DNA from: Larus michahellis
Taxonomy: Eukaryota > Chordata > Aves > Charadriiformes > Laridae
Assembly: GCF_964199755.1 (NCBI RefSeq)
Contig: NC_133896.1
Coordinates: 91,496,215 to 91,560,214 of the forward strand
DNA: 64,000 bases
Reading direction: 5' to 3'
Shown in pieces: positions 11,638 to 59,879 of this stretch. Below the pieces are notes generated by a model, which had not been told where the DNA came from, searched no databases, and saw only the letters and a list, made by a program, of their open reading frames with translations. Position 1 is the stretch's first letter, and every line of letters starts with the position of its first letter. Position numbers and translations under genes: made by a program.

Positions 11638-13684
11638 TCATACTACTCCCCAGACTTCCTCAAAGGCAGTAGTAATTTTAGCACACGTCAGGGCAGCAGA
11701 AAGGGGATAGTTGCTGATGGAGACCATCTTTTCTGTATAGTCAACATTGACCTAGGGGAAAAGAGAAAAAAAAAAAAAAATAATCAAGCTAGAAGTTTTC
11801 ACTTAGTCCCATCTATCTCCATTGGCTGGAGGCACAGTATTTCTCCAAGGCTGAACACTGCCACAGTGAAACACAGCAGGGTAACTGCTAGCCCTCGCTA
11901 CCACCCTCTCTCGGGAGGGAGGGAAGTCCCAAATGTTGCAGCGTTGGGCCTTTTTTTTTTTTTTTGACAAGCCTACCCGGGGGAAGAAAAGAGGGGGCGG
12001 GACAGGAGGGACCAAGCAAAAGAAAAAAAAAAAAACCCCACACTCGGAACAAGACTGAAATCTACGCTGATAAAAATTTTTATAGCTCCAAGTAAGGGAT
12101 ACATGCACTTACTGAACCATGGGCAAAAGCTCCCACAACAATGGCAACTGGCTCCTCCGCAGGAACCAGTTTACGCAGATCTGACACCTTTGGAACTGCA
12201 AAAGAGGTGCCTATCTTCAGACAGCCCACAGGGAGATGATCACTGACTGGGTTTTTAATCACCTACAAAAAGCAGAAAGTTAGCAGGGGCATAGAAGTAA
12301 GACACCTTGCCACATAGTTAAGTCCATGGTTTGCACAAAAATAAAAAAATAATAATAAAAAAATTTACTCCTACATCACTAGTTGCAAAGGAGGAATGTT
12401 GCAACATTACCTGTGAACAGTCAAAGAATGCTTACCTTCAACAGTTTTTGAGGCCCATCAGCTGCTCGAACGCTGAGCTTATGCAGCAACTGAACTGACG
12501 AGAGAAGAAAATTGGTTAAGCTGTCTGTTCTTTTGCTGGAGGAATCCTATCCTCTACCTGGTGATCAGAGCTAAAGTACACAAGAAGTCCATCCTTAGAG
12601 TTCCCGGCATCTTCTAAAGCAGTCCTAAGAAATACTGATCAACAAGTTATTTTGCTGCTAACACAGTCTCATGCTGGCACTCCCCGCTGTGCTAAGGAAC
12701 ACATACTTGACCTATGCATCCTGGAACTCACCAAAAGACACTTTAATTTCTCTGCTCTTTTCTCACACTCACATTTTTGAGGTTGGTGCAACTTTTAGCC
12801 TCTTCCCAAAATTTTTCTAACCACCTTCCTGCATTATTTTGTGACTGGTATAAAGTTTGAATCACTTACCCATAAGACCACAGAATCTATCAAAAGTTCT
12901 TGGGATTCTGGTTTGTGGATTGACTTCAATTAGAACATTCTTCTGGGTATGGATATAAACCTGCAGGAGACCAGCCCGATTCAGTGGGCTGTCCATGAGC
13001 ATCAGGAGACTCTGAAATAGAAAAATGCACAGTAGGGGAAACAGAAAAGGCACCAGAGAGAGGGCTCTTGGAAAACTTGAGGGTTAGGCCCCACAAATGC
13101 AGAAGAGACCAATATGGAGGCAGAAAGGAGTTATCTAGCTGCATGAGCTCTACCGTAAAGCTGAGAAAAAGCATTCCCATAGCCAAACAAAAAGGATTAC
13201 TAACAAACCACGAGAATAGCGGGTAAGGCCAAACTCACCCCTGTTTCAGGGGCACAAAGCAGAACCCCAGACCTGAGGGACAACCTCCCCCAAGCCGACC
13301 GCCGGGCAGCCCAGGCCGGCACAGACACCACCCCGGCCCGGCCAGTACCTGGTGGGCGATATCGGGCCGCACCTCCCCGGGGTCCCGGCCGTTCCGCAGC
13401 AGCAGCGCCTTGTGCTTGTCGCAGTTGAGGAGCTCGAACGTCTTCCCCACCTACGGCCAAAGCACCGACACGGTGGGCAAGGGCTCCCGCGGCCGCCTTC
13501 GGCCAGGCCCGGCCCGGCCCAGTCCGGTCTGACCCCCCGCCACCGGTACCTTCACGGTCTCCAGACTCGCCCCCTCCAGCACCACCAAGAGCCGCCGCTG
13601 CCCTCGGGGTCGCTTCGCCTCCAGCGAAGCATCTTCAGCCTCCTTCTCCTCTTCCTCCTCACGAGGCCGCCTGGGCGCCGCCAT
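11638..13684 (-). CDS. EMG1: EMG1 N1-specific pseudouridine methyltransferase (Nep1)
   Basis: This SPOUT-class enzyme N1-methylates a pseudouridine in 18S rRNA and helps assemble the small ribosomal subunit in the nucleolus. Coding exons on the minus strand, in order: 13550-13684, 13349-13450, 12870-13011, 12436-12494, 12113-12262, 11638-11751. They sum to 233 residues plus stop with consistent phases. The start chosen is ATGGCGGCGCC, giving [17 protein letters not shown]. This is an acidic, poorly conserved N-terminus followed by the conserved [17 protein letters not shown]. Also seen are [60 protein letters not shown] and VVGAFAHG (SAM-binding knot region), ending AFEEVWGVV. It is head-to-head with PHB2 and tail-to-tail with LPCAT3, as in mammals. 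Confidence 0.97.
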
Positions 13685-13911: not shown

Positions 13912-16900
13912 ATGGCGCAGAACCTGAAGGACCTGGCGGGGCGGCTGCCGGCCGGGCCCCGCGGCGTCGGCACCGCCCTCAAGCTGCTGCTGGGGGCCGG
14001 CGCCCTGGCCTATGGCGTCCGTGAGTCCGTCTTTATCGGTGAGTGTCCCGTCCGTCCGTTCTCTAACACTCCCCACCACCACCCGGTGCTTTCCTCCGCC
14101 TCCCGCCCTGACTCTTCTCCTTCTCCCCGCAGTGGAAGGCGGCCAGCGGGCCATCTTCTTCAACCGCATCGGCGGCGTCCAGCAGGACACCATCCTCGCC
14201 GAGGGGCTGCACTTCAGGTAAGGCCCGGCTCCCCCAGCCCCGGCCCGCCCTTTCCCCGTCGCCTCGCCTGAGTAACGGACCTCCCGCCCCTCACAGGATC
14301 CCCTGGTTCCAGTACCCCATCATCTACGACATCCGAGCCCGGCCGCGGAAAATCTCCTCCCCCACCGGCTCCAAAGGTGAGAGCGGCCCCGCGGGCCCGG
14401 AACGTGAGGCCTAGGTGGTGTCTGTGGGGCGGCAGGGAGGGAAAGGAGTCATAGAATCATAGAATGTGTTGGGTTGGAGGGGACCTTTCAAGGTAATCTA
14501 GTCCAATCTCCTTGTAGTAAGCAGGGACATTTTCAACTAGATCAGGTTGCTCAGAGCCTCATCAAGCCTTGAATGTCTCCAGGGATGGGGCCTCCACCAC
14601 CTCTCTGGGCAACCTGAGTCCGGCTGCAGTGCTGGCCCCCCCTCATCATCTCTTTTCTCTTCTTCAGATTTGCAGATGGTGAACATTTCGCTGCGTGTCC
14701 TCACACGCCCCAACGCTGCAGAGCTGCCCAGCATGTACCAGCGCCTGGGCCTGGACTACGAGGAGCGAGTCCTGCCTTCTATCGTTAACGAAGTGCTCAA
14801 GAGCGTGGTAGCCAAGTTTAACGCTTCCCAGCTTATCACGCAGAGAGCCCAGGTGAACTCTTCTGGAGGAGAATTACACTCCCATTGTAAAGAAACAACT
14901 AAATTGTGCACGTGGGGAATGTTATAACAGATAAAGGATAAATATATTAGGCTGGTAGATGGTGCATCCAAACAGAAAGGGTGTGGATCTGTACCCAGCT
15001 TACAGTTTGATTCCAATGCAAATACAAACACTAAGGCTGGACCACTAGCATCTGAGAAGACTGGATTCATTGTATAGAGTGCAAAACTGCACCATAATGT
15101 TATGATGGGTGAGGGAGAGATAATTTACATCATAGTTCACAAGTAACAGTAGAGCTGGCTTTTAAAAAACTATTACTTGGCCCTTCATGGGTCTTAGAAG
15201 AGCTATCAGTGCAAATTAAACAGTTTTAAAGGATCTGAAAAGCAAAGTGAGTGAGCAGTTAACAAAGCTGTAAACTTTCAATAATGTATGCTACGGATGG
15301 ATGGTAAATATTTGTGTTTAGAAAAAAATTAGAGGGTAATCTGGAGGGGGTTGCAAAATAATAGAAATATTTAGCTATAAAAAGTCTATACCTGTAAGCT
15401 TGTGTTCTGATAATGTGATTGCCAGGGATTCTGAGAGTATCTGTTACTTATCGCAGGGGAGGGAGAGAGAAGTTGCTGATCTTCTTCTAAAAGATCCTGC
15501 GTGAGGCTGCTAAAGAGGATAAGTTGTCAGAAAGATGAAATGCAAAGCTCTCTTAACTAGTGTGTGATCCATGACAAAAAAGCGAAGAGTAGAACTAAGC
15601 ATCCAGGTCTCGTTGTGAGAACTGATCCGGAATAGGGACTTCAGGGTTTTGTGGTAGGCCACGTGGTGTGCACTGGAAAGATTTGTTAATGATCTTGTAT
15701 AAAGAGAAAGTGGAAAGGAAGGATGTGACAGCAAAGAAACAATGTCTGCAAACGATTTAGGTTTATTGGAAGCAAAGACGACTGTAGGGTATCCGAAACT
15801 TCTGAACAAACTGGATGAATTTGCCTTCTTGTCATCTATTCGTTACTGTAAAGTGATGCATACTGAAGCAGTTGATAATCAGAAGAAAATAAAGTGACTT
15901 TACGTAGTTAAGCACTTGCAGCTCACACAGCGAAGGATTCTGGCATCATTTTAGAATTGTGCTCAGAAACAGCTGCAATAAAAGTGAAATCAAATGCTAG
16001 ACTGATCAAGAATGTGATACTGTAGCAATAATTTCTATTTAATTGATGGATCAATTATATTTGATGGAAGACTTGTCAGCCTGCCTGAAAAAGATACTGG
16101 CAAGTTAAAAGCAACTCAGAAATTAGTAGGATAACAAAAAAAAAATGTCTACCCAAAAACACTCATCGAAAAAGACAAAAAAGCAGAGTAGCCATGCTAG
16201 ATGAGTAGCTACAGTAGTTAAAAGATGTGATATGTCTACAGTGTGTAGCAGTGCGTAGTGGTAACTTATTTTCTTCATCTGAATACAAAGATGAGGGGAC
16301 AGCCAAACTGCCAAGAGTGGCAAATTCAAGGAAATGCTTATTGCCAAAACTTGTGTGGGAACTGTGGAACTAGATGCAATGGCATGTGGAAGCAAAAAAA
16401 CCTTTCAGGAAGGTTTTCATTTTTGTAAAATGAGTTGTGTAGTATAGTTAAGTAATAACTGTAAGTAAGCTGTAGTTTACTTCTGAAAATGCTGTATGTA
16501 GCTGTGGATATGCAGCGTTATTTAGAGGTGACGGATTCAGAGATGGTATTAATTTCAATGAATCAAGGTTTGCTTTAAGTAATGTCTCTCTTGGGCCCAC
16601 TGTGAACGAACTGTGAAGAGCAGTTGTGCTTCACTTTTGGGGGGTGCAGGAAGTGAGAGTCAGCCTGTGTTTGATACTCTTTTTGCTGTATTTGTGTTTC
16701 AGGTGTCTCTGCTCATTAGGCGAGAACTGACAGAGAGAGCCAAGGATTTCAGCCTCATCCTGGACGATGTGGCTATCACAGAGCTGAGCTTCAGTCGTGA
16801 ATACACGGCAGCTGTGGAGGCTAAGCAAGTGGGTGAGTTCGATTTACGCCTGGAAAGAGTGGATTGCCTTTGCCTCTTTAGTGAATTGTTAAACAAGGAA

Positions 16901-19612
16901 GCAGAATTTGGGATAGCGTATCACTGCTTTTGCGTTGTTACGGCTGCCGAGTTATACATCTCGGCCTCCTTCGTAATGGAGCCAAACAGGTTATTTCACA
17001 AGTATTTTCAGAAGACTTTGGGTGATAGCTAATGGGAGAGACCACCGGTGGGACTGAGTTCCCAAGACCGTAGGGTTCCTCTTCATACTGGGACTCTTAT
17101 CGCTTACTATGTGGATTGTGTTCAGAGGGTCTGAATGCTGTTTTAAGAAAAAATAAAGTGTACTCAGATACATTTCTTACTTGTGGGTATGGCCCCAGAA
17201 TGCTATCTGTTCTTTTGGAAGTGAAGCCCCCAGGCCTCAACTGTAGGGTTCTGGTGGGGGCTCAGAAGATGGGATCTGCTTCCAATGCTTTTGGCCATTC
17301 TCTCTGCAGCCCAGCAGGAGGCACAGCGCGCACAGTTTCTGGTGGAGAAGGCCAAGCAGGAGCAGAAGCAGAAGATTGTTCAGGCTGAAGGGGAAGCTAC
17401 AGCTGCCAAGATGATATCCTACTTCGGGAGATTTTGTGGGATGTGTCTTGTGAGCTTGACAGGACCGAGAATCTGTCGCATTGGGCTCACGCTTAGGAGA
17501 CTGTTATCAGATGATAGCTCTAAGTAGGTCACTGTCATTTATTATTTTCACCCTACAGTTGGCTGGAGTGAGATTTGCCTGAGATTACAGGTCAGAGCAG
17601 AGAAGGCTATGAGCTCCCTGTTGTAAGGTTTAACTTTTGCTGTGTGTGACCATAATCCGTAATGTTGTTCTTGATTTGGGGTAGTAAAAATATCCCTGCC
17701 CAAAGGCCCAAGTTACTGGGACAGAGATTGCTTTTTCCCCCTAAGATGTTTGATTGTATGGCTTGGGAAAAATTCCTTGAGCGTAGGTGGCTTCTGTTAG
17801 CAGATTTTTCCCTTAACTTTTGCTGTACCTCGGTGAAGCTCTTAGCAGGAATCCAGGCTACATCAAGCTACGTAAGATCCGAGCTGCTCAGAACATCTCA
17901 AAAACGGTGAGTAATGGTGCACAGAATTACCTTTGTCCTTCTGCAGTCCTTGTGCTGTCCTCCTAGTCCAGTGGCCACATGATGAATTTAAGGCGAATGT
18001 GACCTGCCCTGTCCTGATCTTTGTTCCTGCCCAGTCATTCTCTGCTCAAATAGAGCTTAAGATCTAGCTTGCAATGATTGTCAGTTAGATGTGAGGCTAG
18101 GAGTTCATGCCTTCCATATGACAAGGCCAGATCCACATCAGATTCCATCACCCACGCCCAGCTGCAGCCACCGAAAGCTCTTGGTTTCTTGCAGGCTGGG
18201 AAAAGGGGACAGCTAAGCCTGGGATCAAAGGTCTGTCTGACCGGGAGACAGAATGAGCACTTCTTTTAGAGAGTCTGATGGCACTGGGACAGGAAGTCGG
18301 GAAGTTACAGAGTCGTTTTGGGAATTGCTTTGATTTAATGGAGATCTTAAGTACTGTATCTGGAGGGGGAGACAGATTCTTCGTTAGTGTTATTCTTCCA
18401 TGTGCGTTTATACTCTTCTCCTTTACGCCATCTCTGCACTGGATTTCTTTTTCAGATTGCTGGCTCACAAAACCGCGTGTATCTCACAGCAGATAACTTG
18501 GTACTGAACCTGCAGGATGAGGGATTCACCAGGTAAAGGGGCCAGATGGCTGTTGTGGGTGGATTTAACTGCACCCTACTTGCGAAGCTGGTCCCCTTTC
18601 TGGAGCTCTCTCGATATCTTATTCTCTGAGAGGAGCGTGGTGCCAGAGGACACAGCCAAGTTGGGAGCAGACTTACTGTGGAAATGGAGATTTTTGTTGA
18701 ATCTAATCAATTTACTCTTGTTTTTCTTCCGTTCCCGCGCTTTACTGCATCTCCTGACACACAGAGGAAGGTAAGGCACTGTTTATTTTGATCCTCCTGT
18801 TGGGACTTGTAACAAGAGTGTTGATGTTTGCCTGGTGCCTGGCATGTTTCTGGCTTGGGCCTTTCTGGCGACAGGAAGTTTATTCCGCCTCTACCTCAGT
18901 TTCCATTTGCGATGTGAAGCTTGAAGCCCTTCCTTGCAGGGGCCGCACAAACACCCACATCAAGTAGGAGATAATCAGTAATTGGAGCTCCGCGTGTGTC
19001 CCGTAAGGAGCCTTGCGTGGGGAAGGCAGGAGTGACTGTGGAGCGTCCTCCGATCTGTTCTGTGTATACAGGGCATCCTGCACGGGTGGCAGAGAGGGCT
19101 GTGAGAAGGCAATTAGATAATTGTAGGAGTTTGTGTTGGTTTGGTTGGATCTCTAGGAAAGATGCTCTTGTTGCGCTCCAAAAGCTTTCCAGTCCATGCT
19201 AGAAAACCCCATTCCCGGCTTTCAGAGCTGGCAGGAGCGTGGTAGCTTTGCCTAATCTGTCCAGTGTTTACTGGGCAAGGCAGTGCCAGCTGAGCTAACA
19301 GCATGCAGCTAAAAGCTTAGATGTTTTAGAGTCACGAAGGGAAGCCAGAGCTGGTCTCTTTCTGTGGATTGTGAGATCCTTCTTCTTTACCTCTGACCAG
19401 ATTTTGTCTTACACATTCCAGAAGGCTTAAGGCGTTTTGAAAAAAGTCCCGAGTAGGAAGGGCTTAAAGTCCAGGTCCTTGAGGTGTGACATCCCACACC
19501 CCCAAGTCTGTAGCGAGGGTCTGGTTCAGCTTTGTTTGTGCTTTCTGGACTAATGACTCGCTTCTCTCTCCCTTTCAGTGACAGTCTCCTACTCAAACAA
19601 GGGAAGAAATGA
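13912..19612 (+). CDS. PHB2: prohibitin-2
   Basis: This inner-mitochondrial-membrane scaffold forms rings with PHB1. It is also reported as a mitophagy receptor and nuclear corepressor (REA). Coding exons: 13912-14038, 14133-14217, 14297-14376, 14668-14852, 16703-16832, 17310-17413, 17829-17906, 18456-18532, 19579-19612. The total is 900 nt, 299 residues, the same length as human. [18 protein letters not shown] and a hydrophobic segment ([14 protein letters not shown], the membrane anchor) are followed by the SPFH/PHB domain ([40 protein letters not shown]). The coiled coil runs from [20 protein letters not shown] to [24 protein letters not shown] contains the LC3-interacting YQRL motif. The C-terminus ends [10 protein letters not shown]. 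Intron 6 (17414-17828) has AT-AC borders; all others are GT-AG. Confidence 0.98.
14449..14616 (-). mobile_element. CR1 LINE 3' fragment in PHB2 intron 3
   Basis: It starts TCATAGAATCATAGAATG, the antisense CR1 tail, and continues with GGTTGGAGGGGACCTTTCAA and the CTGGGCAACCTG block. It fills more than half of the 291-bp intron 3, ending about 50 bp before the exon 4 acceptor at 14668, with no visible damage to splice sites. Confidence 0.95.
15660..16420 (+). mobile_element. ancient CR1-type LINE (reverse-transcriptase region) in PHB2 intron 4
   Basis: Sense-strand blocks match the older amniote CR1 consensus as I recall it. They are ATGTCTGCAAACGATTTAGG (the FADDTK region), AACTGGATGAATTTGCC, TGTAAAGTGATGCATACTG, then AACAGCTGCAATAAAAG and CAAATGCTAGACTGATCAAG. 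Heavily diverged with many indels; both ends are approximate. Intron 4 (14853-16702) otherwise shows nothing I can name. Confidence 0.7.
17414..17828 (+). other. PHB2: U12-type AT-AC intron (PHB2 intron 6)
   Basis: The exon before ends GCTGCCAAGATG (A-A-K-M) and the exon after starts CTCGGTGAAGCTCTTAGC (L-G-E-A-L-S), exactly the residues adjacent in human PHB2. The intron begins ATATCCTACT, matching the U12 donor ATATCCTT at seven of eight bases. It ends GCTGTAC with no AG and no polypyrimidine tract. A branch site TCCCTTAAC (17809-17817) has one mismatch to TTCCTTAAC and lies 12-13 nt before the 3' border, the spacing required by the minor spliceosome. No GT-AG pair nearby keeps the frame. 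Confidence 0.95.
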
Positions 19613-27200: not shown

Positions 27201-30200
27201 CTGGAGTGATCAACTGGGATGCAGTGAAAGAATAAACAGAACGATGAGATACTCTGTGCCCAGGGTATCCTTCACCGAAGCTCCTTCACCGCCCCACACC
27301 ACCACATTCACGTAACCCAAGTGCATGCAGCATGACCCATAGCTTTACCTCTCCTTCTCTGGAGTCAGACTGATCTCACCCCATCCTCCCACCTCTCTAC
27401 CGCTATGATGGACCATGAGGAATTTGATACATCCCTCCCTCCTTCCTTCAAGGACATGTGACCTCTCTCATCATCTCTTAAATCCCCAATGCTGCACACC
27501 TCGTAACCCGCCCAGGAGGACAGAGTGGGCTGAGGCAGGGCCAGGGATGACTGGGACAGCTCTTCGTTGCCTGTCTGTGTCTATTTGTTGGTTTGGTTTT
27601 TTTTATAGTGGAGAAGACTCACAGGGCAAGATGTTCTTGTATCGGTTCTTGCTCTTGTTTTCGGGTCTCTGGCCCTCATGACGGTCAAACAGGTGCTTGG
27701 CTTCCTGTTTTTGCAGACTCTGAGAGCAGAAGAGAGAATAGTCATGGCAAGATCGCAATGACAGGGGAGGTGGGCACTCAGAGGAACAGTGGAGACGCTG
27801 GGGACACATGGGCATGCTTGGGGGGAAGCAGAGAAGTGAAAAGCAAACCTAGACTTCAAAAGTCCAAGGTTTACACCCTTACTGTCTTGGTGACTCGTTC
27901 TCCCAAACATGAAAAAGCACATTTCTACCTTACGGGGTTCACTTAAAGATGACACTCACTCCCCAGAGGAACAGATTCCAAACAGACACTTCTTTCAGAG
28001 ATAAATTGACGAGAATTTACAAGACACCTGGGGAGTTTGTGTCCAGGGAGAAATCAAGGGTGGAGAATGAGGCGGTGCACAGAGACTTTCCAAAAAGCCA
28101 GAATAATGTCCCTCAGCAGTTTCTTACATCAAATTCCTCCCAGAATCCAGCCTTGGATGTCTCCTCAGATAGACTCTTCTTGTTCAGTTCCTGCACTCTA
28201 TTCTCAATGTCAGCAGCATTCACCCTCGTAGCATAGTAGGGCTGGGGATGGGAAAACACAATGGGTCAGCATGAACGAGAGACTCTGCTGGAGACCAAAG
28301 TCTCCTCTGTGTGCTGGGGAGAAAAGGAGGAAAGGGACGCAAAGCAGAAACAAACAGCAAGCAGGTCCCTCCCAAGGATCCCTAAGAAAGAGAGGAAATG
28401 GGATTTACCTGCTTCAGGTACACAAAGGAGCCAGACATCTCCTCAATTCCAGTCTTCTTGAAGTGCTCCACCAGATCTGCCAAGCTGTCAAACGTTTCAG
28501 CACCTCCAACTGTGTAGCGTCCATTCTAAATGGAGGAAGAACGTGTAACGTCCCACTCATAACATTCCTATAGACAAAGCTGTTAACGCTCAGGAAAAAG
28601 GTAACGCTGGGGTGCAAAGCCACGGGCAGCATCCTGTGCTATCTAGAAAAGCATTTCATCTGGCAGGGAGGTCAAATGGTAGCGTGCCCTGAGAACACTA
28701 AGTTCTGAAGAACCGACTCCTGTTCTCAGTGGATGGAAGCCCAGAGAAGGTATATTGCCCTCAGCTCTCATTTAAGGTCAGTTGCTTTCCGTCCTTGAAA
28801 TCTCCCTCCACTCTCTGCATCATCCCACATGAAAGAAATAGGAGAACTTGTGACAGCCAGGTTGGTAACATCCTTCAGACTAAGTGTGGAGGCCTTGCAG
28901 ATGCCCTTCCTCCCTCTCCTCCTCCAAGAACTTTTAACTCTTTCAACGAACTCATAATTAGATTGTGAATCCTCCCCTCTCTTTCACCACAAGCTCCCTG
29001 TACTGGGGCACTCAGTCACACTGAGCCCCGCTTCCTCCCGTGTCTGAGCACCCCGCACTGCCCATGGTCGCCCAGGTTGGGGCGAGGGCATAAGGAACCT
29101 CCAAAGGTGACAGCACTTTGATCCAAATTCAGAAACACTGCTGGTGGTGTTCAAGCTGACAGGGCCCGTGCTTTTGAGGAACGATCGTCAGAGATCAGCA
29201 GAGATCTCTTCTACTCCCTTTCCTTTTGCTCTCCCAACTGCTCACCTCACACATGATCTTGATGTGCGTGACTTTGAGCCGGGCCCCAGAGGCACTGGTC
29301 GCCCCAGCTGGTGGGGCATCAGACCCAGGTTTAGGCTGGTCAGTGAGGACAGACAAGACAAAATCCCCAGGTTTGCTGAGGCTCTCCCGCACCAAGAAAG
29401 TCCAAGGGGTGGCTTTGGCCTGGAGAAGTGACTCAGCTGCAGAGCCTGACAGATGCCCATGGTACCACCTACGAAAAAATAAGAGAGGGTCAGAAGAGAG
29501 GCGGAGATGCAGGTAAGTGGATGCCCTTTAGCTGATGGGTGAAGGACAGCAACAGTGGGGAAGGGTGAGGGAGGAAGAAAAGAAAGGGGAGACAGGGGGG
29601 AGGGAAAGAGAGAGGGAAGGAAGCCAAGGGAGGAGCAGGGTTTTGGGAAAAGCAGATGAGACAGAAAGAAGTAGAGAGCTGACAAGAAAAGGAAAGGGCA
29701 AGGGATGAGGTGGAGGTAGAAGGGACCCAGGGAGCAGAATGCTGGTAGCAGAGGATACAGAGGGAAAACACCAAGCGTGATACACACAAGTACAGGTAAG
29801 CGATGCTTGCTGGCTTGAAGACCAGTTTGGGGAGAGTAGTCCCTGGGTTTCAGCGTCTCTTAGCATTACTCAAACACTAGGGAAACCAAAATAAACCTCC
29901 AATGAGTCAGAAACTCTTCCATTGGGTTTAGCAGCACCCAGATGAATGTGTTGAGATCAGATCCATTAAAGAACCATCCCAGTGACCCCTCTTTCTGAAA
30001 CTCAGTCACCTCTTCAGTCAAAGGATAATTCCCATTCTCTGGGCACATCACAGTGCAGCAATCAGCCTAGCCGTGGGAGTGACCACCAGGAGCCACCTGC
30101 AGCCCGTATTCTGCTCCTGGTACTTACCGCTGTTGTCGATCCATGTGCGCGTTCCTGTCGTCAATGCAAACACCCAGTCAGCAGCTCCTTCTCTCCTCTC

Positions 30201-40428: not shown

Positions 40429-40460
40429 CTCCTCCTTTTCCTGCCATTACACCGGTGGGT

Positions 40461-40518
40461 GAGGCTTCCCGCTCGGCGGGAAACCTACTGGACAAATACT
40501 AAAAGAGCTGAAATCACT
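40461..40518 (-). ncRNA. RNU7-1: U7 small nuclear RNA
   Basis: U7 snRNA base-pairs with the histone downstream element to guide 3' processing of replication-dependent histone pre-mRNAs. On the minus strand the sequence reads AGTGATTTCAGCTCTTTTAG, against human CAGTGTTACAGCTCTTTTAG. Next come the non-canonical U7 Sm site TATTTGTCCAG (human AATTTGTCTAG) and a terminal hairpin with arms GGTTTCCCGC and GCGGGAAGCC around loop CGA (one T-G wobble). The length of about 58 nt is near the usual 57-63. In human, RNU7-1 also sits beside C12orf57, so synteny supports a functional copy over one of the many dispersed pseudogenes. Exact 5' and 3' ends are inferred. Confidence 0.93.
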
Positions 40519-40556
40519 GCCGGTTTTGCGCCCCAGCGACGGGCCCCCCCCGGGCC

Positions 40557-59490: not shown

Positions 59491-59879
59491 TAGATACCTG
59501 GAACCATTATGGTTCCAGACTTCTGCTGCAAGTCTTTATTGGGGAAGATTGCTGGTAACTTTGCAGCTGCAGGACATATATAAGAATACAGGAAACCAGA
59601 AGCTGAATCCCAAGTCAGAGTAGCCACACCATCCGTCCCTTCCTTCAATAACAGACCAGTGAAAAGCATGGTCATCTCTTTCTGCTAAGACACATATCGT
59701 TCTGAAGCTGGCAGAGGGAGGTCCGAGCAAGGATACGACGCTGCTCAGAGCCCACAGTCCCAGGCAAACTAGCCAGTGTGTAGAGAAGAACCAGAGAGAA
59801 GCTCAGTAGCTAGAAGGATCAAACTCTGCAAATGGATTTGAATGAATGAAATGATGAAAGTATCAGTCTGGATGGAAAA

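Follow-up and report, generated by a model that had tools for sequence, protein, structure and literature searches.

A minor-spliceosome intron in the prohibitin 2 gene has already been described in animals. The catalogue in PMC2831892 lists CG15081/PHB2 in its Table 2 (row 16) as an AT-AC intron of the U12 type in both fly and human. In larvae of U6atac-mutant flies, no other U12-type gene was reported to be down-regulated as severely as prohibitin 2, and the authors of that 2010 study argued that the mitochondrial and metabolic changes seen in the mutant originate in the faulty splicing of this gene (PMC2952598). In 65K-mutant flies, retention of the Phb2 minor intron went up and Phb2 mRNA went down (PMC11304329), and a reduction of Phb2 protein is described for miso-null ovaries (PMC12084885). 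Dependence of Phb2 on the minor spliceosome has been reported in fly (PMC2952598, PMC11304329) and also in cells in which snRNAs were inhibited. Among bird genomes, U12DB holds 398 U12 introns for chicken, and the AT-AC share among chicken U12 introns is given as 18% (PMC7367187). Minor introns of the A type (AT-AN) are described as strongly dependent on CENATAC, with 92% of them affected on its depletion (PMC8280824).

We analysed a window of 64,000 nucleotides, by which we mean the whole stretch of DNA under study, and found that it carries the PHB2 gene with an AT-AC intron between coding exons 6 and 7. We conclude, with a probability of about 0.96, that this is the conserved AT-AC intron of the minor, U12-dependent class in the PHB2 gene of animals. 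It corresponds to the catalogued PHB2 U12-type AT-AC intron and is therefore already known, not new: the human PHB2 and Drosophila CG15081/l(2)03709 introns belong to the same gene, have AT-AC termini and are of the U12 type as here, in other species. The first-pass annotation of the window had left open whether the intron was catalogued, a question that the listing for human and fly answers (PMC2831892). It had also proposed that a prohibitin dependent on the minor spliceosome would link minor splicing to mitochondrial integrity. That link had already been argued for the same gene from U6atac-mutant Drosophila (PMC2952598), where the evidence came from mutants and expression data; ours comes from sequence. 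Flies and snRNA-inhibited cells have already served to study this consequence, so the present locus adds little to it; what it offers is that an essential mitochondrial gene keeps its minor AT-AC intron in one more vertebrate-type genome, as in human and fly.

Coordinates of PHB2 and of the features of introns 6 and 7, in positions of the window
Feature	Position	Strand	Basis
PHB2 coding region, ten coding exons	13912-19612	+	301 aa and stop; PDB and Pfam matches
PHB2 exons 1-5	13912-14038, 14133-14217, 14297-14376, 14668-14852, 16703-16832	+	joined translation
PHB2 exon 6, ends AAKM, last codon complete	17310-17413	+	sequence, joined translation, PDB match
PHB2 intron 6, AT-AC, U12-type, 415 nt	17414-17828	+	unique protein-preserving pair, motifs, human and fly catalogue entry
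U12-type 5' splice site ATATCCTACT	17414-17423	+	sequence, motif scan
U12-type branch element TCCCTTAAC	17809-17817	+	motif scan, complementarity to same-genome U12 copy
3' splice site AC	17827-17828	+	sequence, splice-pair scan
PHB2 exon 7, starts LGEAL	17829-17906	+	sequence, joined translation, PDB match
Diverged SCARNA12 (U89) candidate, PHB2 intron 7	17964-18292	+	sub-threshold Rfam match, boxes C/D, closing stem
PHB2 exons 8-10	18456-18532, 18765-18770, 19579-19612	+	joined translation

When translated, the ten joined exons gave an open frame of 301 residues followed by a stop. The top PDB match of this translation was Prohibitin-2 (8rrh_B, which we take to be the human protein) over residues 1-296, with an E value of 9.4e-180, and Prohibitin 1 (8rrh_A) matched more weakly, at 6.6e-79. 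Judged by full-length homology, the predicted product is that of PHB2 rather than PHB1. The translation also matched Pfam Band_7, and a Med2 match fell under the Pfam cut-off. The eight coding introns other than intron 6 are all GT-AG. Head to head with PHB2 lie the first exons of EMG1/NEP1 (13349-13684 on the (−) strand; PDB NEP1 match, E 1.7e-26), the start codons of the two genes being about 230 bases apart.

The borders of intron 6 are fixed by the protein. Exon 6 terminates in GCCAAGATG at 17413 and exon 7 opens with CTCGGTGAAGCT at 17829, and the intron sits between two whole codons. Its first bases, from 17414, are ATATCCTACT, and its 3' end has the form TCCCTTAAC-N9-AC, or in full TCCCTTAACTTTTGCTGTAC, of which the last five bases, to 17828, are TGTAC. 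We paired 100 donor with 80 acceptor positions around these borders, allowing any dinucleotides, and found that only one of the 8,000 pairs, the AT-AC pair 17414/17828, yields a PHB2 peptide with AAKMLGEAL, which confirms to the base the intron coordinates proposed in the first-pass annotation. Its further claim that the exons join as in human PHB2 agrees with the alignment to 8rrh_B, which runs gap-free over AAKM/LGEAL; the human borders are thereby compared with those of this gene at the protein level only. Were the true junction formed instead by nearby GT-AG or GC-AG sites, residues would be gained or lost. A second, wider scan around intron 6 did return 36 GT-AG or GC-AG pairs that keep the frame without a stop, but all 30 of the 36 that were listed alter the length of the peptide, and PDB Prohibitin-2 has neither insertion nor loss at this point, so that we regard such a junction as extremely improbable.

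The signals within the intron are those of the minor class. The consensus of the U12-type AT-AC 5' splice site is ATATCCTTT, and that of the U12-type branch element, which lies a short distance before the 3' splice site, is TTCCTTRAC. The intron 6 donor ATATCCTAC fits at 7/9 positions, departing from ATATCCTTT at +8 and +9, and the branch element TCCCTTAAC fits at 8/9. Of its two branch adenines, the first (17815) is separated from the final base of the intron by 13 nt and the second (17816) by 12 nt; donor, branch site and terminal AC are thus all found where they had been placed in the original reading of the sequence, with the branch site 12-13 nt from the border. Taking as an AT-AC-like pair any combination with at most two donor mismatches and at most one branch mismatch, we counted 6 on the (+) strand of the 64-kb window, the PHB2 pair included, and 30 on the (−) strand, where 60 first-order Markov resamplings gave an expected mean of 9.4 per strand. 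With at most one donor and at most one branch mismatch there were 0 pairs on either strand of the window, against 0.9 expected. Across the 64,000 positions of the (+) strand, 58 were donor-like and just 2 were of the branch-plus-AC kind. Since the count of AT-AC-like pairs in the window is at chance level, we rejected the motif scan as proof of a U12 intron. The motifs nevertheless carry weight, because both fall exactly on a junction that is fixed independently by protein homology. As a separate observation, U12-like donor words of the GT type that differ from GTATCCTTT at no more than one position occur at 27265 and 44862 on the (+) strand and at 59736, 43609, 34186, 29758, 16097 and 12102 on the (−) strand.

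That chance frequency of motif pairs of like quality is what would be expected if the matches were non-functional, or if the locus were a decayed copy of PHB2. Against decay or chance stands the open 301-residue frame given by the ten exons, together with the result of a protein search of the genome. Our snRNA and protein searches covered the whole genome of 1,405,500,149 bases in 616 contigs, and the PHB2 protein gave 12 exon-sized matches (E up to 0.001), comprising eight at the PHB2 locus and four at a PHB1-like locus on contig C22; among these 12 there was no second PHB2 locus or retrocopy. We accordingly give decay or chance no more credence than we give the nearby GT-AG or GC-AG junctions. 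The PHB1-like locus provides a comparison within the same genome: its exon (C22:491300-491900) spans the homologous site of this paralogous protein and reads on through it as SKAAELIANSL. As the frame of that exon is continuous, the paralogue has no intron there.

An AT-AC intron could also be taken out by the major (U2-dependent) spliceosome, a reading that we consider very unlikely for intron 6. An absent polypyrimidine tract is a usual trait of U12-type introns and does not define the class. Within the 20 nt that precede the last three bases of intron 6, 16/20 are pyrimidines, and the same measure gives 13-18/20 in the eight GT-AG introns of PHB2; the first-pass description of the intron end as lacking a pyrimidine tract was therefore mistaken, and the richness of the acceptor region in pyrimidines speaks for the major spliceosome. 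So does the report that the U12 intron of fly Phb2 is still partly spliced in strains whose minor spliceosome is disrupted, residual splicing from which its authors infer that the major spliceosome may recognise the intron (PMC7644725). Removal by the major spliceosome is opposed by the base at +5, which is C here, whereas the U2-type AT-AC introns of sodium channel genes are described as all having G at that position (PMC2831892), by the U12-type branch element 12-13 nt from the end of intron 6, and by the cataloguing of the PHB2 intron as U12-type in the same source. Returning to a minor AT-AC intron as the preferred reading, intron 6 is an A-type minor intron by its termini, and homology and sequence together indicate that it is probably removed as such in this species.

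The genome, which its CR1-like repeats suggest is that of a bird, also holds genes for RNAs of the minor spliceosome. U12, U11 and U4atac snRNA each gave one genome match above the family cut-off, at 150.2, 113.2 and 87.8 bits respectively, and U6atac is presumably present as well. In a survey of 48 bird genomes, U11 and U4atac frequently went undetected, and their true loss was judged unlikely (PMC4378963); both were detected in the genome studied here. The U12 copy contains GTAAGGAA and ATGAGTAAGGAAAAT and is complementary to the branch element TCCCTTAAC of intron 6, and the U11 copy begins AAAAAGGGCTTCT. The U12/branch duplex is predicted at -6.9 kcal/mol versus -10.7 for the consensus, with an A and a C of the branch region left unpaired, and the predicted pairing of U11 with the donor is -4.9 kcal/mol versus -7.6 for the consensus. 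Both pairings are weaker than those of the consensus, which, like the departures of donor and branch from consensus, speaks against the minor-intron reading. In the proposed course of events, the U11/U12 di-snRNP would bind with U11 on the 5' splice site and U12 on the branch element, U4atac/U6atac and U5 would then join, and the minor spliceosome would excise the intron, joining AAKM to LGEAL. Were minor splicing to fail, mitochondria would be affected through loss of PHB2 protein, as argued for Drosophila. A U7 snRNA gene also lies in the window, at 40460-40519 on the (−) strand (62.6 bits versus a gathering score of 34).

Intron 7 contains a candidate for a diverged SCARNA12 (U89). The Rfam family RF01294 (snoU89, SCARNA12) matched along the whole of its 270 positions (1-270) at 17975-18272, with a score of 15.5 bits that is far under the gathering score of 44, and with an E value of 0.34 when 6,401 bases were searched and of 0.03 when 561 bases were; SCARNA12 was absent from the default Rfam scan of the window. 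Two of three sub-threshold Rfam matches in the PHB2 region, mir-505 and chrB-b, were taken for chance. In the candidate, box C (ATGATGA) occupies 17979-17985 and box D (CTGA) occupies 18275-18278, and the terminal stem that closes them consists of 9 base pairs and contains one bulge. No other case of C/D boxes closed by at least 8 pairs occurs on either strand of the window, and 100 resampled strands gave 0.03 such stems per strand at 8 or more pairs and 0.01 at 9 or more, in a test devised after the stem had been noticed. Human SCARNA12 is likewise located within a PHB2 intron, from which it is processed, and it guides pseudouridylation of U46 in U5 (PMC10618143).

Exon 9 of PHB2 is a microexon of 6 nt (AGGAAG). 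It is required for the peptide FTRGSDSL, as in PDB Prohibitin-2, and skipping it would give FTSDSL with the frame still open. U5 snRNA is common to both spliceosomes. One could imagine that the 3' half of PHB2 forms a conserved cluster whose behaviour depends on snRNP supply, made up of the minor AT-AC intron, the intron with the SCARNA12-like RNA and the 6-nt microexon, an idea that we think quite unlikely. If it were true, PHB2 output would convey the state of snRNP assembly to mitochondria, and removal of the minor intron would be coupled to scaRNA release or to microexon inclusion. The microexon has a described counterpart in mouse Phb2, where an exon of 6 nt, preceded by one of 77 nt, is among the SMN-dependent events listed in Table 2 of PMC5063418, with a Bayes factor of 8.85 that is below the cut-off of 10 for motif analysis. 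Exon 8, which precedes the microexon here, is likewise 77 nt long.
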